From the NCBI GenBank assembly GCA_029558535.1, contig JAKQEK010000144.1:1-64000 (forward strand): a DNA stretch of 64,000 nt, read 5' to 3'. Source of the stretch: Bacteroidota bacterium (GTDB lineage: Bacteria > Bacteroidota > Bacteroidia > Bacteroidales > ML635J-15). Below are positions 22,602 to 41,712 of this stretch, in pieces. The stretch's first letter is position 1. Each line of letters starts with the position of its first letter. Under the pieces are notes generated by a model. The model saw only the letters and a program-made list of their open reading frames with translations. It had not been told where the DNA came from and did not search any database. Made by a program: the position numbers and the translations under genes.

Positions 22602-23171
22602 TTGAAATTTTCTGTAAAACATAATACAAACTCTATAATCGTGCTGATTCTTTTAATCAGCACGATGTTTGTTTGTTGCAAGAATGATATTGAAACTGTT
22701 AATCGAATTACTGAAACTAATAAATTACCTTCTTTTATAGTTACAAATCTCGAGACATGCTTTAGTGATTCAGGTGTCGTTAAAATTAAGATATATGCCC
22801 CGGAACTTGTCAGATATGATAAAACTGAAGTTCAATATGATGAATATCCCCAGGGTATAAATGTAGAGTTTTTTAATGATGCGATGCAAGTTACAGGAAC
22901 GCTTAAGTGTAATTACGCCAAATATCTTATTGCTGACGAAATTTGGGAAGCCAAATCTGATGTCGAAGTAAACAGCTTTGAAAAGGAAGAAAAAATAAAT
23001 ACAGAATTGTTGTATTGGGATATGAAAAAGGAAATAATATATTCAGATAAATTTGTTAGAATAACAACTGCTGACGAAATATTATTCGGAGAAGGCTTTG
23101 AGTCAAATCAAGAATTTACAAAATGGAAGATTTTAAAACCAACAGGTACAATAAAAATAAAAGATGAATAA
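22602..23171 (+). CDS. lptC: LPS export protein LptC-like lipoprotein
   Basis: A 189-residue protein with an N-terminal hydrophobic segment ending in a lipobox-like FVCC (Cys 25/26). The rest matches the LptC/OstA-like beta pattern: 'GVVKIKIYAPELVRYDK', 'GTLKCNYAKY...EIWEAKSDVEV', 'INTELLYWDMKKEIIYSDKFVRI'. LptC connects the inner-membrane LptBFG pump to the periplasmic LptA bridge. The start is the TTG directly after the upstream stop; I see no alternative ATG. Confidence 0.85.
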   Translation: MKFSVKHNTNSIIVLILLISTMFVCCKNDIETVNRITETNKLPSFIVTNLETCFSDSGVVKIKIYAPELVRYDKTEVQYDEYPQGINVEFFNDAMQVTGTLKCNYAKYLIADEIWEAKSDVEVNSFEKEEKINTELLYWDMKKEIIYSDKFVRITTADEILFGEGFESNQEFTKWKILKPTGTIKIKDE

Positions 23172-23382
23172 AACTAAATTTAAATTTGTTGTTCTAATAG
23201 AGTATGCATGGATTCTAATGGCAGTTTTTTGTTTGATTGTAGGAATATACTACCATGGGAAAATTGGAATTAGTAAAGTTTGGCTTATATATTCAATGAG
23301 TGTAGTTAGTGTTGGCATGTTTGGTGTTCGGAGAATGCAAAGAAAAAATCTGGAAAAGAGAAACAGAAGAAATTTAAACTAA
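23164..23382 (+). CDS. Small membrane protein between lptC and CorC-like gene
   Basis: A 72-residue protein with two hydrophobic helices (about 7-29 and 37-54) and a very basic tail (RRMQRKNLEKRNRRN). It overlaps lptC by 8 bp and the next gene by 1 bp, so it is translated as part of the same operon. Function is unknown. Confidence 0.75.
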   Translation: MNKTKFKFVVLIEYAWILMAVFCLIVGIYYHGKIGISKVWLIYSMSVVSVGMFGVRRMQRKNLEKRNRRNLN

Positions 23383-24644
23383 TGGACTGGGTAGTATTAA
23401 TTATTGCTATAATTTTTTCCGCTTTTTTTTCTGGAATGGAAATCGCATTTGTAGCTTCGAATAAACTTAGACTGGAATTAGCATCAAAAGAATCAGGTCT
23501 TAGCTCCAGAATTTTATCGTTGTTTAACAATAATCCTTCGCGTTATATTTCTGCAATGCTAATCGGAAATAATATTGTTTTAGTGATTTATGGTATTTTT
23601 ATGGCAAAAATGCTTGCCTCTCCAATAAATCAATATGTAAATAATGAATTCTATGTTTTATTATTACAAACAATTATTTCTACATTAATTATTTTATTTG
23701 TCGGTGAATTTATTCCTAAAACTTTATTTAGAGCTGTTAGTAATTCGGCATTGAGAACATTTTCAGTTCCTCTAGTTGTATTTTACTATCTGTTTTATCC
23801 AATTGCAACAGCAACAGTATGGTTTTCGGCAAAAGTAATCAGGCTGTTTTCAAAAGCAAATATTGATTACAAAATAGAAGATAGGGTATTTGGAAAGATT
23901 GATATTGAGGACATTATTGAAAAGAGTAAATCAGATAATAAGCTGTCACAATCATCTCAGGAACTTAGAATTTTTCAGAATGCGATGGATTTTTCAACAA
24001 TTAAACTTCGTGAGTGTATAATTCCGCGAAATAACATTGTAGCTGTCCCAATTAATATCGAAATTCCGGAGCTTAGAGATCGATTCATTGAATCTGGTCA
24101 TTCAAATATCTTGGTTTATAGAGATAATATTGATCAAATAGAAGCTTATGTAACCGTTAAAGATATTTTCAAAAACCCCCAAAAGTTAAGAAATATAATG
24201 CGGCAGGTATTAATAGTCCCAGAAACGATGTCAGCAAAAAAACTCTTCGAGAATCTTGTTAAAGAAAATAAGAGTCTCGCTGTTGTTGTTGATGAATTTG
24301 GAAGTACAAGCGGTATGGTTACAATCGAGGATATTTTAGAAGAGATTTTTGGAGAGTTTGAAGATGAACATGACGCTCCTGAAATGGGAGTTCAGATTAC
24401 AAATGATGGTAATTTTATCTTGTCCGGACGTCAGGAAATAGATGTCTTTAATGAAGAATATGGATTTGATCTTACGGAATCGGAAGAATACGAAACTATG
24501 GCAGGGTATATTTTGTATCATACTGGGGTTTTTCCCAAAGAAGGAAACGTTTTAACAATTAGTGATAATGGAAAAACATTTAAATTTAAGATATTAAAAG
24601 TACAGGAAACAAAAATTGACAAGCTTATGCTTTTTGATATTTAA
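23382..24644 (+). CDS. CNNM/CBS-domain CorC/HlyC-family transporter-like protein
   Basis: A 420-residue protein: an N-terminal DUF21/CNNM membrane domain (about 1-180, with several helices), two CBS domains (about 205-320, 'MIPRNNIVAVPI'-like start and 'DEFGSTSGMVTIEDILEEIFGE'), and a C-terminal CorC_HlyC domain (about 340-415). Family members affect magnesium or cobalt efflux. In flavobacteria the gliding-associated GldE has this same architecture, so GldE-like is a possibility. It overlaps the preceding small gene by 1 bp. Confidence 0.88.
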   Translation: MDWVVLIIAIIFSAFFSGMEIAFVASNKLRLELASKESGLSSRILSLFNNNPSRYISAMLIGNNIVLVIYGIFMAKMLASPINQYVNNEFYVLLLQTIISTLIILFVGEFIPKTLFRAVSNSALRTFSVPLVVFYYLFYPIATATVWFSAKVIRLFSKANIDYKIEDRVFGKIDIEDIIEKSKSDNKLSQSSQELRIFQNAMDFSTIKLRECIIPRNNIVAVPINIEIPELRDRFIESGHSNILVYRDNIDQIEAYVTVKDIFKNPQKLRNIMRQVLIVPETMSAKKLFENLVKENKSLAVVVDEFGSTSGMVTIEDILEEIFGEFEDEHDAPEMGVQITNDGNFILSGRQEIDVFNEEYGFDLTESEEYETMAGYILYHTGVFPKEGNVLTISDNGKTFKFKILKVQETKIDKLMLFDI

Positions 24645-24708
24645 ACACAAGATTGTTTTCGAAGATTATTTTGTGATTTTTATCTTTATATCCTCATACA
24701 TTTTTTTA

Positions 24709-24716
24709 TACATTTG
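24709..24716 (+). promoter_or_regulatory. -7 box upstream of the cysteine synthase gene
   Basis: TACATTTG fits TAnnTTTG. It overlaps a possible GTG start at 24716, which argues for the ATG at 24737 as the real start. Confidence 0.5.
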
Positions 24717-24736
24717 TGCCTCAAAAAGACACAGTT

Positions 24737-25639
24737 ATGATTAATGAAAGCATTTTACAAACTATAGGCGAAACCCCGATAATAGAAATAAACAAATTAA
24801 ACCCAAATCCTCAGACTTCGATTTTTGTGAAAGTAGAGGGGCGAAATCCCACTGGAAGTATTAAAGACAGGATTGCTTTGAAAATTCTGGAACTTGCCGA
24901 AGCAGGAGGTCAACTGACAAAAGACAAAACCATAATTGAAGCTACATCAGGAAATACAGGAATTTCATTAGCTATGATAGGAGCTATTAAAGGTTATAAA
25001 GTCGAAATTGTCATGAGTGCGGCAGTTTCGGTAGAACGTATTAAAATGATTGAAGCATTTGGAGCGAAGGTGGTTTTAACTGATGCGAAAAATGGCACAG
25101 ATGGAGCAATTCGGAAAGTTAGAGAGTTGGTTGAGTTAAACCCGTCAAAGTATTTTATGACAGATCAGTTTTCTAACAAATATAATGGTGTAGCGCATTA
25201 TAAAACGACCGGAGAGGAAATATGGAAACAAACTAATGGAAGAATTGATTATTTTGTTTCTGCAATTGGAACTTCCGGAACAATAATGGGAGTGGGAAAA
25301 GTTCTGAAAGAATATAATCCGAACATTAAAATTGTATGTGCCGAACCGGTTGAAGGACATTATATTCAGGGTTTGAAAAATATGAATGAAGCAATAATTC
25401 CGGCAATATATGACCCCGAAAAAATTGATATTAAAATAATGGTAAATTCTAAACAAGCTTTTGCAATGACCAGAAGAATAGTCAGAGAAGAAGGAATATT
25501 TTGTGGAATGAGTAGTGGCGCAGCCATGTTTGCGGCTATTGAAATTGCCAAAACTATTAGCAAAGGCAGAATTGTTACAATTTTCCCTGATCGTGGTGAG
25601 AAGTATTTAAGTACAGAATTGTTTCAAAGCCAGGATTAG
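24737..25639 (+). CDS. cysM: PLP-dependent cysteine synthase (CysK/CysM family)
   Basis: A 300-residue fold type II PLP enzyme. The PLP lysine lies in NPTGSIKDR, the substrate loop is EATSGNTGISLAM, the phosphate-binding glycine loop is AIGTSGTIMGVG, and the late MSSGAAM segment is present. It makes cysteine from O-acetylserine (or a related activated serine) and sulfide. It could be CysK or CysM; the short length slightly favours the CysM group. It has its own promoter and terminator. Confidence 0.85.
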   Translation: MINESILQTIGETPIIEINKLNPNPQTSIFVKVEGRNPTGSIKDRIALKILELAEAGGQLTKDKTIIEATSGNTGISLAMIGAIKGYKVEIVMSAAVSVERIKMIEAFGAKVVLTDAKNGTDGAIRKVRELVELNPSKYFMTDQFSNKYNGVAHYKTTGEEIWKQTNGRIDYFVSAIGTSGTIMGVGKVLKEYNPNIKIVCAEPVEGHYIQGLKNMNEAIIPAIYDPEKIDIKIMVNSKQAFAMTRRIVREEGIFCGMSSGAAMFAAIEIAKTISKGRIVTIFPDRGEKYLSTELFQSQD

Positions 25640-25665
25640 AAATTTTAGATAAATAATTATTTAGT

Positions 25666-25696
25666 AAAAAAGCCAACACAAACCGTTGGCTTTTTT
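25666..25696. terminator. Bidirectional terminator between cysM and tRNA-Ser
   Basis: Perfect 12-bp arms AAAAAAGCCAAC (25666-25677) and GTTGGCTTTTTT (25685-25696) with a 7-nt loop. It serves cysM on the plus strand and the tRNA-Ser transcript on the minus strand. Confidence 0.9.
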
Positions 25697-25700
25697 ATTG

Positions 25701-25787
25701 CGGAGAGACAGGGATTCGAACCCTGGGTCCGCGTGAGCGGACAACGGTTTTCGAGACCGCCCCGATCGACCACTCCGGCATCTCTCC
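25701..25787 (-). tRNA. tRNA-Ser(CGA)
   Basis: Read on the minus strand, it is an 87-nt class II tRNA: acceptor GGAGAGA paired with TCTCTCC, D arm GCCGGAGTGGTCGATCGGGGC, an anticodon arm with loop CTCGAAA giving anticodon CGA, a long variable arm (TGTCCGCTCACGCGGAC) and T arm GGGTTCGAATCCC. CCA is not encoded. It reads UCG codons. Confidence 0.95.
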
Positions 25788-25865
25788 TGAAAATATGTTA
25801 TTTATTAACTTCAGTTAAAAGTACTGACTTTTCAAGTTAAAAATATTTAATAAATATAAGAACGT

Positions 25866-25955
25866 ACAACGGTTTTACTCCTTTCAGTCGTGAGCTCACC
25901 GCCAAATGGCGATTCGGTTCGAGACCGCCCCGATCGACCACTCCGGCATCTCTCC
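25866..25955 (-). pseudogene. Broken copy of tRNA-Ser with a 42-bp insertion at the anticodon loop
   Basis: Positions 25918-25955 repeat the first 38 nt of the intact tRNA-Ser exactly (offset 168 bp). A 42-bp unrelated tract follows on the minus strand (25917-25876), holding a CGCCAAATGGCG hairpin, and then ACAACGGTTT (25866-25875), which matches the bases just after the anticodon of the intact gene. The variable, T and acceptor 3' parts are absent. It cannot fold as a tRNA and looks like an insertion or integration scar. Confidence 0.8.
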
Positions 25956-26106
25956 GGTTTCAGTAAAGCGAATGCAAAATTAACATTTTTTATTTAATGC
26001 CCAAATATCATTGTAAAATGGTGTTTTGTGCTGTAGATTCTGCACTCCGAAACCAGCCCGAACACAAATCCCGAAAACGCCATTGCCTAACTTTTTTCCC
26101 TCGTCT

Positions 26107-26169
26107 GCGCGGATTTAACTTCATTGAGCTCAACACCAGTCGGCGTTTTCGGTTGCAATCCGCGCCCTC
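26107..26169. repeat. 59-bp palindromic dispersed repeat, copy 1
   Basis: The 59-bp core is 26111-26169. The outer arms GCGCGGATT (26107-26115) and AATCCGCGC (26157-26165) form a perfect 9-bp inverted repeat, and TTGAGCTCAA in the interior is itself palindromic. A second copy with four mismatches lies at 27165-27223. Confidence 0.85.
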
Positions 26170-27781: not shown

Positions 27782-29260
27782 TTAATAATTTATAAGTTTT
27801 TTCTTCCATTCAAGCATTATTTGTCTATTGAGTTTTGCGATATTACAAAAAAACTCATTAACGACTAACGGATCTCCCTTTGGATTTTCATTTGCATTTC
27901 TAACCATACACATGGTACAAAAATCTTTATCGGGGCATTGAATACATTTAGGAAAGTCTTTATTGCGCAAGTCTCTTAAATATTGGACTTTTTCAGAATT
28001 ATTCCAAATGTCATTGAGAGAATTTTCTTTTACATTACCAACAATATAATCCTGCCAGCCAGCACATGGATAAACATTTCCATTGTCTGCTATGCAAATA
28101 GATGAATGACAAACGCTACAAACAAAATCGTTTAAAGTTGTATTTTTTTTCTTCTCAACTTCTATTTCCATTTGCTCTAAATATTTTGGATCATTCGTAA
28201 CTTTGTCCTTAAGCATTTCTTTGATTTCATTAATTGATAAACGGCAACTCAGATTTTGTGTTGTATGGTTATATCTTGCTATTATGACATAATCATCGCC
28301 GACATGAATTTTATTCTTTTCTGCCCATTTTATTACTTCACCATAACAGTTCTTATTTTGCTTCATTATTGGACAACTAATTTGCAAAGGAATATCGTTT
28401 TCAACCAGCTTTGAAATTGCATTTTTTGTTTTTTCAAAACTTCCTTTCATTTGGGTAATTTCATCATGAATAATTGGATTCATAGAATATAATGAGACTT
28501 GAACACCTAATAGAGGGTTCGCCTTCATTTCTTTAATAATATCATCATTAAGTAATGTTAAATTACTAAGAATATTTACTGAGAAATCATATTCTTTACA
28601 TTTTCTTAAAAAATCACAAAAGTTTTTGTGTAACATAGGTTCACCACCACTTAACGTCAAATGCAATAACCTCATATTTTTACATTGTCTTAAAATATCA
28701 TAAAATAAGTCAGGTTCAATATGGCTTACTTTATTATCATGTGGGATGTAACAATGTACACATCTTTCGTTGCACTTGCTTGTAATTTCAATGTGCAAAT
28801 TTGTAAGCTGAGGTTTGCCTTCAAAGTGTTCTTCTAAAAAATCCTGTGTGAATTTTTCGGGATGCATAAAAGTCTTAGAAAAATCCTTTTTTATTATTTC
28901 GGATTTTAATGTCTTGTATGAAAATCTCGTGTCTTTTTCTTCGCACTCCTGCAATGTTTCGCCAGATACAATAAATCCATCCCGCTCAAGACTGCTATAA
29001 AATTCTAAGGCATCATTTTTTATTGTTCTAATGTCAACATCAGTATATAGCGTATTTATTTTTTTTGCAAGCTCATCAATGGTTTGTGGTTTTCTACCTA
29101 AAATAGATAAAAAAACGGCACCACTTTCTGATAGAATTTTGTCACCGATGTAGTTATCGTTATTACTAGTTTGTCTATATTCGAAATTCCTATTGTCAGT
29201 TAGATAACCAAAGGATTCATAATTTCTAAATATAACATTTGATTTTTGCTTGAAAAACAT
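27782..29260 (-). CDS. Radical SAM/SPASM RiPP maturase with PqqD-like N-terminus
   Basis: A 492-residue protein. Residues 1-100 form a PqqD/RRE-like winged-helix region ('SESGAVFLSILGRKPQTIDELAKKI...' to 'FYSSLERDGFIV'), which in this enzyme class binds the leader peptide. The radical SAM motif is CNERCVHC (Cys 163, 167, 170), followed by LTLSGGEPMLH. The C-terminal third is a SPASM domain with about nine cysteines (CSVCHSSIC, VYPCAGW, KCIQCPDKDFCTMC, FFC) for two auxiliary [4Fe-4S] clusters. It lies 70 bp downstream of a 41-residue peptide gene, which makes it a peptide-modifying enzyme. The chemistry (thioether, C-C or other crosslink) cannot be read from sequence. Confidence 0.9.
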   Translation of the reverse strand: MFFKQKSNVIFRNYESFGYLTDNRNFEYRQTSNNDNYIGDKILSESGAVFLSILGRKPQTIDELAKKINTLYTDVDIRTIKNDALEFYSSLERDGFIVSGETLQECEEKDTRFSYKTLKSEIIKKDFSKTFMHPEKFTQDFLEEHFEGKPQLTNLHIEITSKCNERCVHCYIPHDNKVSHIEPDLFYDILRQCKNMRLLHLTLSGGEPMLHKNFCDFLRKCKEYDFSVNILSNLTLLNDDIIKEMKANPLLGVQVSLYSMNPIIHDEITQMKGSFEKTKNAISKLVENDIPLQISCPIMKQNKNCYGEVIKWAEKNKIHVGDDYVIIARYNHTTQNLSCRLSINEIKEMLKDKVTNDPKYLEQMEIEVEKKKNTTLNDFVCSVCHSSICIADNGNVYPCAGWQDYIVGNVKENSLNDIWNNSEKVQYLRDLRNKDFPKCIQCPDKDFCTMCMVRNANENPKGDPLVVNEFFCNIAKLNRQIMLEWKKKLINY

Positions 29261-29280
29261 AATAATGACTCTTTTAAAAT

Positions 29281-29317
29281 CAGGCGACGAGTTTTAATTG
29301 AATAAAATCGTCGCCTG
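29281..29317 (-). terminator. Hairpin between precursor peptide and maturase genes
   Basis: Perfect 10-bp arms CAGGCGACGA (29281-29290) and TCGTCGCCTG (29308-29317), with further A/T pairing in the loop. It lacks a strong T-run on the minus strand, so it is probably a leaky attenuator or an mRNA-stabilising hairpin that gives more peptide than enzyme. Confidence 0.75.
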
Positions 29318-29330
29318 AAAAATTTGTTCA

Positions 29331-29456
29331 TTAACGTCCACCTGGTTTTGGTGGATTACAAGGTCTTCCACTGGGCTTACTGTTTGGTCGGCATTCCGCC
29401 ATCAGTACAGTACTTTGTGCCAAAATTTCCGGTTTTTTGTAAATTACTTTTTTCAT
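29331..29456 (-). CDS. RiPP precursor peptide (41 residues)
   Basis: The gene was read by hand on the minus strand: ATG at 29454-29456, TAA at 29331-29333. The leader MKKVIYKKPEILAQSTVLMA contains a YxxPxI motif (residues 6-11), the kind of signal recognised by RRE/PqqD domains. The core ECRPNSKPSGRPCNPPKPGG then R is rich in Pro and Gly and has two cysteines (22 and 33) and two Arg/Pro clusters. It has a canonical promoter upstream and a hairpin downstream and precedes the maturase. No protease or exporter gene is adjacent. Cys22 and Cys33 are candidate crosslink sites; that is an inference. Confidence 0.85.
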   Translation of the reverse strand: MKKVIYKKPEILAQSTVLMAECRPNSKPSGRPCNPPKPGGR

Positions 29457-29497: not shown

Positions 29498-29528
29498 CAA
29501 AGATACAGAACTATAATCACTTTTCAAA
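29498..29528 (-). promoter_or_regulatory. Canonical Bacteroidota promoter of the RiPP precursor
   Basis: On the minus strand: TTTG (29528-29525), exactly 19 bp, then TATCTTTG (29505-29498). Both boxes and the spacing match the sigma-ABfr consensus. The predicted start site is about 35 nt before the ATG. Confidence 0.8.
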
Positions 29529-31278: not shown

Positions 31279-31569
31279 ATGAATGTAATAACTATTGAAT
31301 CGGAAGCTTTCAAACAAATAATTGATAAGCTACAGGGACTAGAAGACAGATTTGTTAAAATGAAAACGGAAGCTGAAACTCCACTTAGCGAACGCTGGCT
31401 TGACAATCAGGATGTACTACTATTGTTGAAAATCAGTAAAAGAACTTTACAAAGTTATCGTGATGAACGCAAAATCCCTTTTTCTCAGGTTGGGAATAAA
31501 ATTTACTACAAATCTTCGGATGTAGATAAATTTCTGAAGAGAAATTACAGAAAAATCAACAACTTTTAA
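31279..31569 (+). CDS. Helix-turn-helix (excisionase-family) DNA-binding protein
   Basis: A 96-residue protein with a short N-terminal coiled segment and a HTH_17/MerR-like domain at residues 38-90 ('SERWLDNQDVLLLLKISKRTLQSYRDERKIPFSQVGNKIYYKSSDVDKFL'). Proteins of this type are common at the start of replication modules of Bacteroidota integrative elements, where they act as excisionases or regulators. It precedes the primase gene by 9 bp. Confidence 0.85.
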   Translation: MNVITIESEAFKQIIDKLQGLEDRFVKMKTEAETPLSERWLDNQDVLLLLKISKRTLQSYRDERKIPFSQVGNKIYYKSSDVDKFLKRNYRKINNF

Positions 31570-31578
31570 GGAGAAGCA

Positions 31579-33612
31579 ATGATGACAAATGTAAGCATAT
31601 ACGAAAAATTTAATAAGATTATTGCAAATAGATCTATTGAAACAATACTCGAGTTAATTAGAAGCGAAAAGTTTAAGCATCATATTGACACATTACGAAA
31701 ACTTATAAGTGAGCAAAAAGAATCTGAGTACACGGCAAAGAAAAAGTCTTTGCCGGCTTTTACTCCTTCCGGAATGTTTAGCGGAGGGCGAAAAAGCAAT
31801 CTTCTCGTCGAGTATTCTAGGATAATAATTCTTGATATTGACAAACTTGAAAGCATTAAAGATTTACGCGAAAAAACAGAAAAATGTATTTATACTTTTG
31901 CCTGTTTCGAAAGTCCGAGTGGCAAAGGTTTGAAGATTCTAATCAAAACAGACAACAGCCTTACAAAACATCGAGAAGCATTTCTGAAAGCACAGGCATA
32001 TTACGAAAAACTTCTTGGGGTAAAAATTGATCCTTCAGGTAAAGATGTTACTAGACTTTGTTTTATGTCTTATGATCCAAACTTATATTATAATGCAAAC
32101 TCCGAAATTTTCAAAATTTTACCTGAGAGAGCAATGAAGAATGATGTGGAAAAACTTATTGAACAGCTTGAAGGCAAACGCATTGACATTACCAGGAATT
32201 ACGAAGATTGGCTTAAGATAGGTTTTGCATTGGAAAGCGAATTTGGAGAAACTGGACGTTCGTATTATCATGAAATAAGCAAATTTAATACTGATTATAA
32301 TTCCGAAAATTGTAATGAGCAATACAACAGATGTCTAAAAAACAACAATAGCGGAATAACAATTAAAACCTTATTTCATATTGCAAAACAACATGGGATA
32401 GTAATTCGTTCAATAAATCAAAATTCTGTTGAAAGCACAAATAGTAATGTGCAAAACGATAATTCAGCAAACAAAAAAGTTACCTCAAACAAGTTTATTA
32501 TTACTGAAGAATATCTGAGCAAGAATTTCGATTTGCGTTACAATGTAATCAGTAATAAGTTTGAGTATAAGAAAAAGGATGATCGTGAATGGCAAGAAAT
32601 GAACGAAAACAATATGTTTATCCAGCTTCAGAAAGACAATATAAACATAAGTCTAAACCATTTGATAGCATTATTGAAGTCAGATTTTGTACAAAGATAC
32701 CATGTCTTTCGAGAATATTTTGAAAGTCTTCCGGAATGGGATGGTACAACAGATTATATTTTAAAACTCACTTCATTTTTGATTACAAATGACAGAGCAC
32801 GTCTTGAGAAGCATTTCAAAAAGTGGCTTGTAAGAGCAGTAAAAACTGCAATTGATGATAATTACTTCAATAAGCAGGCATTTGTTTTAGTGAGTACAAA
32901 ACAGAATAGTGGTAAGTCAACTTTTTGTCGTTTTTTATGCCCCACTGAGCTCAAAGATTACATTACAGAGAGTATTACCACAGACAAGGACAGTATGATA
33001 GCAATAACAGAGAATTTCTTGATAAATCTGGATGAGTTATCACAAGCCGACAAAGCTGAAATAAATGCTTTTAAGTCGATGTTTTCAAAAGACAAGGTAA
33101 AAGCAAGGTTAACTTACGATAAACGACCAACAGTACATTCAAGGCGTGCGAGTTTTATAGGTTCTACAGACCGATGGGAATTCTTAACAGATGAAAACGG
33201 CTCTGTTCGCTGGTTATGTTTCGAGATAGAGCGAATTGATTGGAATTATAGCAACGAAGTTGATATTGATGATGTTTGGTCTCAAGCGTATCACCTGCTA
33301 ACCAAAGTAAAATATGAATTCGAGCTTACGGCCGACGAAATAAAAGAAAACGATTACATCAACAAAAAGTACCAGGTCTCAACTCCGGAACGTGATCTTT
33401 TAATGAAATTCTTTACACCTGCAGACGAAAAAACCGGTGAATTTAAAACTGCCACGGATATTCTCGAATTTATTTCCGAAAGGACTTCAATAAATTTAAG
33501 TCCGGTTAAGATTGGTAAGGAGTTGAGGTTTTTGGGGTTTGAGAGGGTGTCGAAGAGGGTTAATGATAACTTGCCTGCTTATGGCTATTTTATCAGATGC
33601 ACTATTGATTAG
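31579..33612 (+). CDS. VirE-type primase-helicase of a mobile element
   Basis: A 677-residue protein with three regions: a VirE N-terminal/BT4734-like domain (about 1-175, 'IIILDIDKLE', 'CFESPSGKGLKILIKT', 'DVTRLCFMSYDP'), a PriCT_2 domain (about 185-265, 'EDWLKIGFALESEFGETGRSYYHEIS'), and a virulence-associated E helicase domain (about 375-600) with a Walker A-like NSGKST near residue 445 and NLDELS as Walker B. Such proteins initiate and unwind DNA during replication of integrative elements. Two adjacent ATGs begin the gene; the choice matters little. Confidence 0.88.
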   Translation: MMTNVSIYEKFNKIIANRSIETILELIRSEKFKHHIDTLRKLISEQKESEYTAKKKSLPAFTPSGMFSGGRKSNLLVEYSRIIILDIDKLESIKDLREKTEKCIYTFACFESPSGKGLKILIKTDNSLTKHREAFLKAQAYYEKLLGVKIDPSGKDVTRLCFMSYDPNLYYNANSEIFKILPERAMKNDVEKLIEQLEGKRIDITRNYEDWLKIGFALESEFGETGRSYYHEISKFNTDYNSENCNEQYNRCLKNNNSGITIKTLFHIAKQHGIVIRSINQNSVESTNSNVQNDNSANKKVTSNKFIITEEYLSKNFDLRYNVISNKFEYKKKDDREWQEMNENNMFIQLQKDNINISLNHLIALLKSDFVQRYHVFREYFESLPEWDGTTDYILKLTSFLITNDRARLEKHFKKWLVRAVKTAIDDNYFNKQAFVLVSTKQNSGKSTFCRFLCPTELKDYITESITTDKDSMIAITENFLINLDELSQADKAEINAFKSMFSKDKVKARLTYDKRPTVHSRRASFIGSTDRWEFLTDENGSVRWLCFEIERIDWNYSNEVDIDDVWSQAYHLLTKVKYEFELTADEIKENDYINKKYQVSTPERDLLMKFFTPADEKTGEFKTATDILEFISERTSINLSPVKIGKELRFLGFERVSKRVNDNLPAYGYFIRCTID

Positions 33613-33983: not shown

Positions 33984-34916
33984 TTAAATACATCCATTAA
34001 AATAACGACAAATGAAATCCTTTAACCATTTTTCTTTGCAAATTTGCTGTAAATCTGACACAAACGTTTCTATATGCTTAATATAAAAACCTGTTTTATG
34101 TTCATTATATTTAGTTGTCGCATCATCAAAAGAAATAAATTGTTCTGTATATTTACTTACAGCATCTTGACACTGTTGATTTTTTTTCGGGAATAAATAA
34201 ACAAAAAATCCTTCTGCATATTTTGTATTTTCATGTCTTATGTGAGATATTGAAAGCAAATGGTCACGCCATATTTGCTCTAAAGGTTTTTCTTTTAGAT
34301 ATTGAATACTGTTTTGTTTGAATAGTCCAGAGTCATTTGTAAGTTCTGCATATCTTGTTTTATATTTGGCAGGTGCATCATTTAAACTTTCAGCATATTT
34401 TACTTCAATGCCTATAAAACCGATATGACCTGTATAAGAAATATATTCAATAAAAACATCAAATGCAGAATGGTCACAAGTATAACTACAATCTCCTCTT
34501 CCATCAGAATGTTCAAAAATTATTTTTTGAACACTCTTGATTCTATTTGGGAATTGACCATTAAGAAACTCAGTAGCTAAATCTAAATTAAGCGATAGTT
34601 CTGCGAATAAATTAAAGGCTAAAGGCTGACTTGATAGTAAGTTTGTGTAAAGCCTTGTTTTTAATATTTTAGCCCCTTTCTCTTTCGTTTTAAGAGCATT
34701 GGCTACTACTGATCTAATATTATCTGACAAAAAATTATACTGCTTATCAAAAGCGAAAGTTTTTTCAATGTAGTTACCTAATTCAACATCTTTGCATGTT
34801 CCATCCTTTTGTTTTTGCTTATATGTACCAATTGGAAATTTACATTCGATTCTCCAAGAGTTTTGTTGTTCTCTTGCCCAAGCTGAAAACTCTGTATCTC
34901 CTTTTACTTTTTTCAT
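33984..34916 (-). CDS. PGN_0703-like PD-(D/E)XK restriction endonuclease
   Basis: A 310-residue protein. Around residues 135-173 it shows a nuclease core: Glu135, then Asp153 in DHSAFDVFIEY, then Glu171-Val-Lys173 in FIGIEVKYAE. That D...ExK spacing is typical of the PD-(D/E)XK fold, and the overall pattern resembles the PGN_0703 family of putative restriction endonucleases. No partner methyltransferase is directly adjacent; the nearest is the MTase-HNH fusion beyond the IS element. The gene is flanked by two copies of GGTTGCAGCTA. Confidence 0.65.
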   Translation of the reverse strand: MKKVKGDTEFSAWAREQQNSWRIECKFPIGTYKQKQKDGTCKDVELGNYIEKTFAFDKQYNFLSDNIRSVVANALKTKEKGAKILKTRLYTNLLSSQPLAFNLFAELSLNLDLATEFLNGQFPNRIKSVQKIIFEHSDGRGDCSYTCDHSAFDVFIEYISYTGHIGFIGIEVKYAESLNDAPAKYKTRYAELTNDSGLFKQNSIQYLKEKPLEQIWRDHLLSISHIRHENTKYAEGFFVYLFPKKNQQCQDAVSKYTEQFISFDDATTKYNEHKTGFYIKHIETFVSDLQQICKEKWLKDFICRYFNGCI

Positions 34917-37058: not shown

Positions 37059-38717
37059 TTAAGGTTCCCATCGAGAGATACCTCTTTTGAGAGCTGTGTA
37101 CTCAACTGCTTCTGCTAATGTATTAAATAATGAATTCTCCCAGTTTTCATTTGTTGTATTTTCTCCAGTAAACCTGGCAGAATCATTAAAAAAACGAATT
37201 GGATAATTTTCCTTGTAGATTTTCCAATAATCAATTATGACATCTTTTCTTTTTACAATAATGTTTCTAGTTGGCAATCTATCTCGTTTTTGATTATTAA
37301 CTTGAGGACTTGTTGGCAAAAGATTCCACAAATCGTTGTTGTACCATAAACTGTAAGGTATAACATGGTCGATATCAAAACTATTTGATAATTCTTTTCC
37401 AGACCATGCACATTCTAAATTTGTGTAGTTTTTAAAAGTATTTCTTGCTAATAACACATCACGTTTGTCAATATTTTCCATGGTTAGTAAATCAATTATA
37501 TGACCAGCTGAGACTTCGTCTTTAGAGAGCTTTTTTGTAAGTTCTGCCCATCTTAGTAATGATGCATCGTATATCCAAGATCCCATTAAAACAAACTCTT
37601 TCCATAAATCGGATGATAGTTCCAAACATTTAAATTGCTTATTATAGGTAAATATATCAATGTCATTATCTATTCCACCAGAATGTTTAATTGGACCATC
37701 AATAATTGTCCGCTTAATGATTTGACGCAGACGATTTAAATAATTGTGCATATCTGAAGGAACCGAGTTGTTTTGTAAATCCATTATAAAACGTGACAAA
37801 AAACCATCATTTGATTTGTAATGATTAATTATGGGAAGCATTGGTTTTCTAAACGCAACTGGCTTATCAAACTCAATAGATTCATTTTGTATTTGTGGGA
37901 TAAAAACTTTTGATTCAAATATTGGCCAATAATATTTAATCCATTTATCAACTATAAAATCAATTGGAATATGAACTTTGTTGTTACTATGCCACAATAC
38001 AGAATTGTAATTATTATTGGCAATATCAGCAATTGATCTTATTAAAGCTAACTTATATGTTGCTACTTTTTTATCCTTGTTAATTATAGATTCAATTATT
38101 GAAATTGGTTTCGTACCACAGTTACTATCAAGATTAAATAACAAAACCAACCATTTTTTTTCGACTCTACCAAGACTATCAGGATTGCACCATTTATTTA
38201 TTAATCTAAATCCAATTCTTTCACATAAAAGGATTAACTTGTTTGGAATTATTTGATTCAAAAATACATTATGATGATTTACTGGTTGACTGTTTTCATA
38301 AATGGGGATAGAAAGTAACAATTTGCCATTATCTTCAAGCAATTCTCTGAAGCGGAAGATGCTATTAAAAATTTCATCATTGCTAAGATGCATTAAAACA
38401 GCAGTACAAATAATAGATTCAAATTTGGATGAGACATTTGTCAGAGAGGGTAAAGAATCTACTGATATTTTATCTTTTAAATGAGGAAATTTTTCACCAG
38501 CATATTTAACAAATCCACTGGAAGCATCAACACCATATGTGTCATATCCTTGATTATAGAGAATATTTAAATCTCTTCCTGATCCAAAACCAACATCGAG
38601 GACTTTACCTTTTTGTAAATGCTGAAAGTACAAGGAGATTCCATCTTGAGCTGTCAGGTAATAATCACCTAATTTGTCAGCATTTGCGTCATAATAACTA
38701 ATTGTTGATGAATTCAT
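37059..38717 (-). CDS. SAM methyltransferase-HNH endonuclease fusion
   Basis: A 552-residue two-domain protein. Residues 1-190 form a class I SAM-dependent methyltransferase (motif I VLDVGFGSGRDLN at 39-51, 'YGVDASSGFV', 'ESIICTAVLMHLS', 'GKLLLSIP'). After a central region of about 240 residues, the C-terminus has an HNH nuclease: CAWSGKEL, then SFDIDHVIPYSLW with His451, and LWNLLPTSPQVNNQKRD with Asn465. The methyltransferase belongs to the small-molecule/type 11-12 group rather than to DNA N6A methylases (no NPPY). The combination suggests a self-contained modification and cleavage factor, perhaps defensive; this is inference. Confidence 0.8.
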   Translation of the reverse strand: MNSSTISYYDANADKLGDYYLTAQDGISLYFQHLQKGKVLDVGFGSGRDLNILYNQGYDTYGVDASSGFVKYAGEKFPHLKDKISVDSLPSLTNVSSKFESIICTAVLMHLSNDEIFNSIFRFRELLEDNGKLLLSIPIYENSQPVNHHNVFLNQIIPNKLILLCERIGFRLINKWCNPDSLGRVEKKWLVLLFNLDSNCGTKPISIIESIINKDKKVATYKLALIRSIADIANNNYNSVLWHSNNKVHIPIDFIVDKWIKYYWPIFESKVFIPQIQNESIEFDKPVAFRKPMLPIINHYKSNDGFLSRFIMDLQNNSVPSDMHNYLNRLRQIIKRTIIDGPIKHSGGIDNDIDIFTYNKQFKCLELSSDLWKEFVLMGSWIYDASLLRWAELTKKLSKDEVSAGHIIDLLTMENIDKRDVLLARNTFKNYTNLECAWSGKELSNSFDIDHVIPYSLWYNNDLWNLLPTSPQVNNQKRDRLPTRNIIVKRKDVIIDYWKIYKENYPIRFFNDSARFTGENTTNENWENSLFNTLAEAVEYTALKRGISRWEP

Positions 38718-39718: not shown

Positions 39719-40777
39719 ATGACAAAGAATTACAGACAATTAGCAGAAAGTATTCGAGGACGACTAAACCCTGAAAATTTCGCATTAAAAAAAGCGTTTT
39801 TGGACGAACTTTCAACAATTTCATATAGTGATGTATTGACCTACATAAGACTTGCAATGAAAGGTGTTGAGCCTGAATATACACAGAAAAGTAAAGACGC
39901 AGGAGAAAGAGTAAAAGAACATCTAGGAAAAGTGTTAGAAGATGTTTCATTTAAATATCAGGGTTCTGTAATGACAGACACCCACATTAAAGGATATAGC
40001 GATATTGACTTGCTAACGATTTGTGAAAAATTCTACCAACCCGACACAAGGAGCTTTAAGTCGATTATTGAAACTCCTGAAAGAAGAGCGAAATATAGAC
40101 AAACCTATATTGACAAACTTCAAAGAGAAATAAACTTAACCTCATATACAGGAAATGCATTAGACGATTTAAGAACATTAAGAAGAGACAGCGAAAGAAT
40201 TCTTTCAGACGTTTATAAAATTCATGACTTGACAAAGCCAAAAGCTATAAAGATAAAAAACCTTAGTCTAAATCGTGAAGTTGATATTGTTATTGCCAAC
40301 TGGTATGATGATGTTTCTTCTGTAATCAATGATAAGGGCGATTATAGGGGTATTCAAGTTTACAACAAAGAATCACATTCAAGAGAAAGTGCTGATTTTC
40401 CGTTTCTGAGTATTAAAAGAATAAATGAGCGTAGTTCTGAAACAAATGGAAGACTAAAAAAAATGATAAGATTCTTAAAAAACAGCAAAGCTAATTCTAA
40501 CCTCGAAATTGATTTAAGCAGCTTTGATATTAATGCAATATGTTATGATATTAAAGTATCAGATTATCAGAACTTGTCTTTCTATGAACTTGTTCCAGTA
40601 TTGTATAATCAAATAAGAAGCATAACCACAAACCAATCACATTCTGATAATTTAGTTTCTGTTGATGGTAAAGAATATATTTTCAGAAACAAGTCAGCCA
40701 AACTCACAAACCTCAAATTACTTTTAGCAGAGGTTGAATCAATCTTTATGGATTTTAAAACCACAGTAAGAGTATGA
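39719..40777 (+). CDS. CBASS CD-NTase (cGAS/DncV-like nucleotidyltransferase)
   Basis: A 352-residue protein with the nucleotidyltransferase signature GS (82-83), followed by YSDIDLL with catalytic Asp95 and Asp97, and a third acidic residue Asp189 in REVDIVIANW. This is the CD-NTase arrangement of CBASS anti-phage systems. The cyclase makes a cyclic oligonucleotide when phage infection is sensed. Its stop overlaps the start of a TIR-STING gene (ATGA), so this is a two-gene CBASS operon. In known TIR-STING systems the cyclase is CdnE-like and makes 3'3'-cyclic di-GMP; the product here is inferred by analogy. Confidence 0.88.
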   Translation: MTKNYRQLAESIRGRLNPENFALKKAFLDELSTISYSDVLTYIRLAMKGVEPEYTQKSKDAGERVKEHLGKVLEDVSFKYQGSVMTDTHIKGYSDIDLLTICEKFYQPDTRSFKSIIETPERRAKYRQTYIDKLQREINLTSYTGNALDDLRTLRRDSERILSDVYKIHDLTKPKAIKIKNLSLNREVDIVIANWYDDVSSVINDKGDYRGIQVYNKESHSRESADFPFLSIKRINERSSETNGRLKKMIRFLKNSKANSNLEIDLSSFDINAICYDIKVSDYQNLSFYELVPVLYNQIRSITTNQSHSDNLVSVDGKEYIFRNKSAKLTNLKLLLAEVESIFMDFKTTVRV

Positions 40778-41712
40778 TAAAAAAGAAATTATTCATTGGC
40801 TCATCAACAGAGGAACTTGGACTTGCCCAAGTTGCAAAATCTATTTTAGAAAAGGACTTTAATGTTTCAATTTGGAATGAGAAAGTTTGGGATACTTCTG
40901 TTTTCAAAATAAACCAAAACTTTTTGTCAGACCTTTTGAAAGCCTCACTTCAATTCGACTTCGGTATTCTATTAGGGACTAATGACGACAAAGTTCTTTT
41001 CAGAGGCAAAGAAGTTATGCAACCAAGAGACAATGTATTATTTGAGCTTGGTTTATTCACAGGAAGACTAGGAACTACAAAATGTGCATTTCTTATTGAT
41101 AAAGAGGTTAAACTACTATCCGATTTCAATGGACTTAGTTTAGCATATTTTGATAAATCACAAATGGATACATTTACTTCTGCTGTAAACGACATAAGAA
41201 GTTTATTTATATCAAGCTCTGATGATGAAATAAACTTCTTCCCATCTGCAACTCTTGCATCCGTATATTTTGAAAATTTAATTGTTCCCATTTGTAGATT
41301 TATAATTGAAAACAGTGGCTTTACTTCAAAAGATATTCATTATAAAAATTGCAAAATCAATGTAATAATTCCAGACAGAATTAATGAAGATGTAAACCTT
41401 CAATTTGAAAAATTGAAATCATCTATATCTACAGAGAATGTTTCCTTCAAGTATGCTGGTCGACCAAGACACATTAGCATTGAAACTCAAATTAAAAATG
41501 ACACGCTTGAATTTATTGACTTTCCGACAATAATTACGGGGATTAACCATGCCATTTCTAATTTGTTACCTAACGACTTTAATAAATTAAGCCCTGATTA
41601 CAACTCAATACTTGAAAGAGAGCTAAGGCGTTTTATAACAACACTAAAAAAACTATTAATAAGAAATGGGTTTGATGAAATGGTGTTTGTTAAGCGTGAA
41701 AAAGAAATTTAG
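40774..41712 (+). CDS. TIR-STING effector of CBASS
   Basis: A 312-residue protein. Residues 1-150 are a TIR-like domain (KKLFIGSSTEELGLAQ at the start; PRDNVLFELGLF with Glu91 as the likely NADase catalytic residue). Residues 155-312 fit the prokaryotic STING domain: 'FPSATLASVYFENLIVPICRFI', 'CKINVIIPDRI', 'LEFIDFPTIITGINHAI' and a terminal helix. This order matches Sphingobacterium faecium TIR-STING, which on binding c-di-GMP forms filaments and depletes NAD+. It is translationally coupled to the CD-NTase. No membrane segment is present, unlike TM-STING effectors. Confidence 0.85.
   Translation: MIKKKLFIGSSTEELGLAQVAKSILEKDFNVSIWNEKVWDTSVFKINQNFLSDLLKASLQFDFGILLGTNDDKVLFRGKEVMQPRDNVLFELGLFTGRLGTTKCAFLIDKEVKLLSDFNGLSLAYFDKSQMDTFTSAVNDIRSLFISSSDDEINFFPSATLASVYFENLIVPICRFIIENSGFTSKDIHYKNCKINVIIPDRINEDVNLQFEKLKSSISTENVSFKYAGRPRHISIETQIKNDTLEFIDFPTIITGINHAISNLLPNDFNKLSPDYNSILERELRRFITTLKKLLIRNGFDEMVFVKREKEI

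Follow-up and report, generated by a model that had tools for sequence, protein, structure and literature searches.

A probable mobile two-gene RiPP pair of Bacteroidota and distant bacteria, with precursor genes also found in phage contigs

A tiny gene and the radical SAM maturase gene beside it, both located on a 64,000-nucleotide stretch of a contig from a Bacteroidales bacterium (JAKQEK010000144.1, positions 1 to 64,000; the window), are inherited together and have been transferred horizontally as a pair, the sequence of the peptide being under strong selection. The tiny gene very probably encodes the substrate of the adjacent enzyme, and we consider it highly likely that the two genes constitute a self-contained RiPP pair that is mobile between distant bacteria. 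As to the role of the product, phage-host conflict is the most likely one, although we give it somewhat less than an even chance. The most far-reaching reading, with a probability of only about 0.35, is an anti-phage system with an intracellular radical-modified peptide effector, which phages of Bacteroidota would counter with decoy precursors that keep the leader and carry an altered core.

The peptide gene and its control region

The original prediction had proposed an unannotated precursor of 41 residues with two cysteines in its core (Table 1). Minus-strand translation of the gene gives 41 codons and a stop, reading MKKVIYKKPEILAQSTVLMAECRPNSKPSGRPCNPPKPGGR; the plus-strand reading is an unrelated sequence. 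The translated peptide contains Cys22 and Cys33 as expected, and the predicted YxxPxI leader motif is present as Y6-K-K-P9-E-I11. As regards the lack of annotation, seven of seven plasmid records have no feature under the peptide, but the gene table consulted is by its own account incomplete. Searches of NCBIfam and Pfam with the peptide gave no match. The border between leader and core at residue 21/22 is inferred.

Table 1. Coordinates of the peptide gene, the maturase gene and associated features in the window
Feature	Position	Strand	Basis
Bacteroidota-type promoter (presumed), TTTG-N19-TATCTTTG	29498..29528	-	sequence and scan
Precursor peptide gene, 41 codons plus stop	29331..29456	-	translation, 24 type A peptides, selection
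Putative leader, residues 1-21, motif YKKPEILAQST..MA	29394..29456	-	conserved letters; like leader in sister peptides
Putative core, residues 22-41: ring CRPNSKPSGRPC and tail NPPKPGGR	29334..29393	-	pN/pS, ring length
Intercistronic hairpin, 11-bp stem	29280..29318	-	fold in loci and covariation
Radical SAM/SPASM peptide maturase, 492 aa	27782..29260	-	PF04055 4.6e-22, PF13186 3.1e-11; fold matches
Putative PqqD-like recognition domain for the RiPP leader, residues 43-97	28970..29134	-	PF05402 22.0 bits, gathering score 23.4
Radical SAM core, CxxxCxxC, C163/C167/C170 invariant	28325..28792	-	Pfam and alignment
SPASM region, C381, C389, C399, C439, C442, C448, C451 and C472 invariant	27845..28120	-	Pfam match, residues 381-443; alignment

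Peptides of the same kind, termed type A, were selected by the leader pattern and the letters GRPC. The 24 sequences share the consensus xYxKPxILAQSTxxMAECRPNSKPSGRPCNPPxPGGR, with small changes between loci. Both cysteines are present in all of them, and the ring from cysteine to cysteine is 12 residues long in 22 peptides and 10 in two (L010 and L013). Of the 24 bacterial-type peptides, 23 have the ring Asn and only L010 lacks it; Cys replaces the ring Ser before Gly in L014, L036 and L056. The leader Tyr was found in 23 peptides (Phe in L036) and the leader Pro and Ala in 24, the search pattern itself having required [YF]..P and A; upstream ORFs of the loci were also listed unfiltered, without the leader pattern. 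None of the residues W, F, Y and H occurs in core residues 22-41. Intermediates between type A and other cores were absent among the 27 peptides found.

The pN/pS ratio, calculated for 18 non-identical DNA sequences, all of standard length, was 0.229 over 36 codons, with values of 0.40 for the leader, 0.049 for the ring (pS 0.74) and 0.31 for the tail; each of the 36 columns of this alignment contained 2 to 8 different codons. The alignment comprised 19 of the 24 type A peptides, L009, L010, L011, L013 and L036 being omitted because of length or leader letters. Since the rows were chosen by the leader letters and GRPC, the constancy of these positions results partly from the selection of rows, which lowers pN there. 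As far as can be judged from sequence, a translated peptide under selection is by far the best reading of this gene.

The predicted promoter and hairpin were likewise found at their places. The string TTTG-N19-TATCTTTG, which we take to be the Bacteroidota-type promoter consensus, is matched exactly, and the peptide starts 41 nt below it. This strict form occurs in two of the 15 loci scanned, the window included, against 0.05 expected in all of them from shuffles; a promoter common to all 15 loci was looked for, and only these two had it. On this evidence the putative promoter is real at the window locus and not conserved across loci.

The hairpin lies between the peptide gene and the enzyme gene, and a hairpin in the intergenic region was found in every one of the 22 short-gap type A loci; this gap amounts to 437 nt in L006 and 266 nt in L027, neither of which was folded. 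Seven of the 11 hairpin pairs vary on both sides, a degree of compensatory change that none of 500 shuffles reached (17 aligned sequences; of the 22 short-gap loci, those on plasmids apart from L030 were omitted, as were L013 and L036). In the plasmid copies, the hairpin is followed by a T run. The hairpin is likely a partial terminator or attenuator that probably stops most transcripts after the peptide, and the substrate would therefore be made in excess of the enzyme.

One could also read the small ORF as nothing more than a regulatory leader peptide, in which ribosome stalling at proline codons and the hairpin attenuate the enzyme gene; the order of short ORF, hairpin and gene and the Pro-Pro stretch of the peptide are compatible with this. 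We give this explanation very little weight, given that selection acts on residues along the whole peptide, that a locus of a sister family (L026) has tandem precursors before one enzyme, that the gaps of 266 and 437 nt occur in two loci, and that the phage copies described below have no gene to regulate.

The maturase and its relation to known systems

The radical SAM neighbour named in the original prediction is a 492-aa protein with radical SAM and SPASM domains, which begins after a gap of 70 nt. The cysteines expected of a radical SAM/SPASM maturase, those of the CxxxCxxC motif and of the SPASM region, are present: C163, C167 and C170, as well as eight cysteines from 381 to 472, were invariant in 27 of 27 maturase rows. 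The PF05402 match is borderline, being below the gathering score; in the AlphaFold2 model the PqqD-like region is predicted to consist of a strand (41-43), three helices (45-53, 61-69 and 77-93) and a further strand (97-100). The mean pLDDT of the model is 85.4; the confidence is low for residues 163-171, the loop of the CxxxCxxC motif. The frame of the maturase gene is interrupted in L014. With named radical SAM peptide systems of NCBIfam, the best 25 of 60 maturase matches were all below the cut-offs, the top match having 102 bits against a cut-off of 500.

The solved folds closest to the predicted model are SuiB (5v1t), CteB (5why), SkfB (6efn) and anSMEcpe, the substrates of which are peptides or proteins. 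In the ranthipeptide and sactipeptide systems CteB/CteA, PapB/PapA and SkfB/SkfA, a radical SAM/SPASM maturase with an N-terminal recognition domain is encoded beside a short Cys-containing precursor. CteB and SkfB are among the best fold matches of the window maturase, at an identity of about 16%, and its scores against the PapB and SkfB models are 59 bits (cut-off 340) and 67.5 bits (cut-off 300), respectively. Unlike the peptides of these systems, the window peptide has two cysteines 11 residues apart in a ring of Pro, Gly and Arg, and its loci have no shared exporter. The two conserved cysteines and the enzyme class allow a thioether of the ranthipeptide or sactipeptide type, a linkage that is inferred. 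When the entire length of the maturase is considered, its fold is matched best by SuiB; streptide, the product of SuiB/SuiA, links Lys to Trp, and the aromatic partner required for a cross-link of the streptide or triceptide type is absent from the window core. The fold match to the anaerobic sulfatase-maturing enzyme anSMEcpe is accompanied by the Cys in place of the ring Ser before Gly in the three peptides mentioned above; unlike a sulfatase, however, the window substrate is a 41-residue peptide, and the sulfatase motif, as generally known, is absent. The best PADLOC match of the maturase is to prokaryotic viperins (pVip; 2.2e-19) and covers only residues 157-319, the radical SAM core; to our knowledge, pVip has neither a SPASM domain nor a peptide partner.

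From what is known of the family, the N-terminal PqqD-like domain would bind the YxKPxI leader, for which there are no binding data, and the radical SAM centre together with auxiliary Fe-S clusters would modify the CRPNSKPSGRPC ring. One or more Cys thioether links are the most likely modification, because the core has no aromatic residue, which speaks against Trp or Tyr cross-links, and the two cysteines in all 24 type A peptides favour thioethers. In the absence of mass data, that the peptide is modified at cysteine is an inference towards which we lean.

A lasso peptide would require cyclase and protease genes, and no third gene was widely common to the loci. The Bacteroidales cluster BGC8 is similar in being a radical SAM/SPASM RiPP of this order with a two-Cys precursor; it has a YcaO protein, a leader of the GG type and an exporter of the PCAT type (PMC10352776), none of which was seen with the window pair. 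No paper with the core strings, the leader strings or this pair was found in an open-access library from which most subscription papers are missing. The cassette is thus a radical SAM RiPP type not found in the literature searched.

Pairing, mobility and host range

A search of genome contigs with the enzyme found 21 maturase relatives. Homologous maturases without a similar peptide gene upstream would have refuted the original prediction; all 21 loci have an upstream peptide with a like leader, and 17 of them the same type A core. The remaining four (L015, L016, L018 and L020) have a different core, termed type B, with CxxC near the end in two loci, CxC in one and a single Cys in L020; in L015 the peptide is 1.07 kb from the maturase and separated from it by another ORF. 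Seven conjugative plasmids with the maturase (five of E. coli, one of Salmonella and one of Photobacterium) are the same seven that have the peptide. Further type A pairs were identified in genomes L033, L034 and L036 and in the viral-collection contigs L027 and L056, while L032, L035 and L038, whose contigs are as long as those of L003, L011 and L010, respectively, were not counted again. No peptide was seen in 1.5 kb of upstream sequence in L024.

The core type follows the maturase tree, as would be expected of enzyme and substrate: 21 type A rows form one branch (100/100) against eight others with a type B core or, as in L024, no peptide seen. The tree comprises 29 rows and its bootstrap is not fully settled; L014 was left out because its frame is interrupted, L021 because the contig ends within it and L031 as a close copy of L030, and L033 and L034 were likewise left out. 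The L036 maturase is only 47% identical to the window enzyme, and yet the core of its peptide is CRPNSRPCGRPCNPPGPGG; the core changes far less than the enzyme. A short precursor gene adjacent to a modifying enzyme and conserved with it as a pair, as expected of a RiPP, is thus present. Beyond the maturase, no gene family was found in more than four of the 27 loci compared, although the flanks of some loci are short and a third gene common to them could have escaped notice.

Sister systems occur in L025, L026 and L037, where the peptides have a similar leader, the string GSYAAGCP and a CxxC motif close to their end. An amidohydrolase-like gene, recognised by eye, follows the maturase in these systems, and L026 has two tandem precursor copies before one maturase.

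On the E. coli plasmid NZ_LT985265, inverted repeats of 49 nt (94%) enclose the pair together with genes for a resolvase and a transposase of the Tn3 family, and the 5-bp target duplication TTATA stands on either side of this element. The Photobacterium plasmid NZ_CP150463 carries the pair in a like Tn3-type element with different repeats (55 nt, 89%) and the 5-bp target duplication TATAT. The transposase pieces of the two elements are 23-36% identical and the resolvases 28%, against 77% for the maturases; the peptides are identical, with differences at 17 of 117 nucleotides. From the maturase to the right repeat, the E. coli element has no ORF of more than 47 codons, and in the Photobacterium element this distance is 177 nt. 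The pair thus seems to be the only evident passenger of both Tn3-type transposons. The same right repeat is found on one Salmonella plasmid and one further E. coli plasmid. The elements correspond to L030 2898-9035 and L028 3478-8660, both on conjugative plasmids, and the L028 transposase is split over two frames.

Other host labels include Bacteroidota, Deferribacteraceae, Pectobacterium, Oscillospiraceae and more; many of these hosts are metagenome bins, the labels of which may be wrong. Carriage is patchy. A maturase relative was found in seven of 393 genomes of the order, six of them with a type A core, and in two of 395 genomes of the phylum sample, the window's own genome being included in both counts. 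The precursor core pattern was present in six of the 393 genomes of the order, five times in cassettes and once without an open leader, so that the real core matches all lie within cassettes (5/5). A megablast search with the E. coli cassette against 5,426 E. coli genomes gave no match.

A peptide-derived cofactor or metal-binding compound, like PQQ, mycofactocin or methanobactin, would be in line with the near-fixed core and with the PqqE-like matches of the enzyme. We regard this as improbable: the loci do not widely share any additional gene for biosynthesis, transport or a client, the cores of the sister family are quite different, and the Tn3-type transposons carry no other evident passenger.

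The surroundings of the pair in the window were also inspected. The region 25700-25955 contains a tRNA-Ser(cga) gene and, 168 nt on, an exact second copy of the 38 nt at one end of it, where an element lying to the right may possibly be attached. At 31279-33612 (+) are genes for an HTH protein and a BT4734-like/PriCT_2/VapE-like protein, types of protein that are known from integrative elements. They are followed by a PD-(D/E)XK nuclease gene (33984-34916, minus strand; PF20796, 1.4e-78), a gene at 37059-38717 (minus strand), the product of which matches methyltransferase and HNH families and, weakly, Cas9, and a CBASS pair at 39719-41712 (+) composed of an oligonucleotide cyclase (PADLOC 3.3e-154) and a TIR effector (1.5e-116). 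In L002 the same CBASS pair starts 2.4 kb after the maturase start.

Phage precursors and the possible role of the product

A scan of IMG/VR with core and leader DNA patterns revealed the real peptide in eight contigs. The maturase is present in two of them (L027 and L056); in the other six, the precursor occurs without a maturase in the record. These six represent three lineages, with no blastn similarity between the loci compared. The first is a 94-kb crAss-like contig with the peptide MIYTKPKILAQSTVQMAECRPNSRPSGRPCNPPKPGGV, assigned by its muzzle-protein match and by its nearest DNA polymerases among the matches listed. The second comprises three contigs with the peptide MNYSKPRILAQSTLPMAQCITPSRPSGRPCNPPTPSGR; among the 48 records that match their terminase, 43 carry Bacteroidota genus names. 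The third comprises two faecal-phage-like contigs, in which genes for a primase and a head protease adjoin that of a 66-residue peptide ending in KYKKPEVLAESTNMMVLCRPVSIPSGSPCNPPKPAGR. Of these lineages, two are akin to phages of Bacteroidota. Phage-type genes flank the peptide on both sides in five of the six loci, and in L066 the sequence ends beside the peptide. A maturase elsewhere in the phage genomes is not excluded, because the records may be fragments. The crAss-like contig (L068, record G802, 22898-26131) encodes a further radical SAM protein of 290 aa, which lacks a SPASM match and resembles the maturase only weakly, over residues 156-230 (2.2e-5).

No maturase was found in 50,697 isolate phage records, and comparison of the phage peptides with the same records gave no credible match, only hits with E of 2-6. 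A scan of the viral contigs for type B precursors gave 23 stretches with the core pattern and none with the leader. Fourteen further stretches (L061 and L069-L081) have a core-like pattern without the leader and were taken as chance matches.

The leader is kept in all three phage lineages. The ring Asn is missing in the second and third, and the third has also lost the Arg of GRPC, while the crAss-like peptide has the ring of the bacterial L011 peptide. Because this ring occurs in bacteria, the crAss-like peptide could be a working substrate and not a decoy. One could hypothesise, therefore, that the phage peptide is matured by the host enzyme and serves the phage, for example, by excluding rival phages or helping lysogens; peptides are known as agents of lysogenic conversion, and the crAss-like peptide retains the entire ring and leader. 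The loss of the ring Asn in two of the three lineages and of the GRPC Arg in one argues against such a function, although GRPC was itself the letter test for type A, so that the constancy of its Arg in bacteria is partly due to selection of the sequences. Hosts with a type A cassette are also few, at six of 393 genomes of the order, and we find this explanation unlikely.

Another possibility is a secreted antibacterial or signal RiPP, in which the product of the same pair is exported and trimmed by house-keeping machinery and acts on other cells. The core is cationic, Pro-rich and Cys-containing, as is typical of secreted peptides. A Bacteroidales RiPP cluster, BGC5, is also described without transporters (PMC10352776). 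Against secretion, the loci do not widely share genes for an exporter, a protease or immunity, the ring hardly diversifies, and a precursor alone would be of little gain to a phage; we consider it a rather doubtful, if conceivable, alternative.

In the reading that we prefer, the leader would be cut off by a house-keeping protease and the mature product would act within the cell that makes it, on a target that is conserved. Intracellular action on such a target is most likely, since no exporter, protease or immunity gene is shared and the ring hardly diversifies. A role in phage-host conflict is a tentative inference, to which we give somewhat less than an even chance, drawn from the finding that phages, two of the three lineages being akin to those of Bacteroidota, carry the substrate without the enzyme. 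The phage precursors would then be decoys, occupying the host maturase or spoiling its product. The evidence for anti-phage action is indirect only, consisting of the maturase-free phage precursors and the CBASS pair in the window and L002. PADLOC recorded 215 families in 140 neighbour proteins and 31 in 115 control proteins; the link to defence islands is weak, because this comparison counts families and not proteins. The neighbour scan covered 140 of 166 proteins, the plasmid loci L028 and L030 being omitted for size, and 14 of the 20 control stretches requested existed, two of them shortened.

The pair represents a RiPP reduced to two genes, which travels as a unit on two distantly related Tn3-type transposons of Enterobacterales and Vibrionales plasmids. 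It is present in assemblies labelled with several phyla and its core hardly changes, a fixity that suggests a fixed target. The maturase-free precursors in three phage lineages make the role of the product directly testable with laboratory phages. If the decoy reading is true, phages fight a peptide-based defence by giving its enzyme a false substrate; this would amount to RiPP-based intracellular immunity and to an anti-defence strategy, substrate mimicry of a RiPP maturase, that, if proven, would be new in kind.
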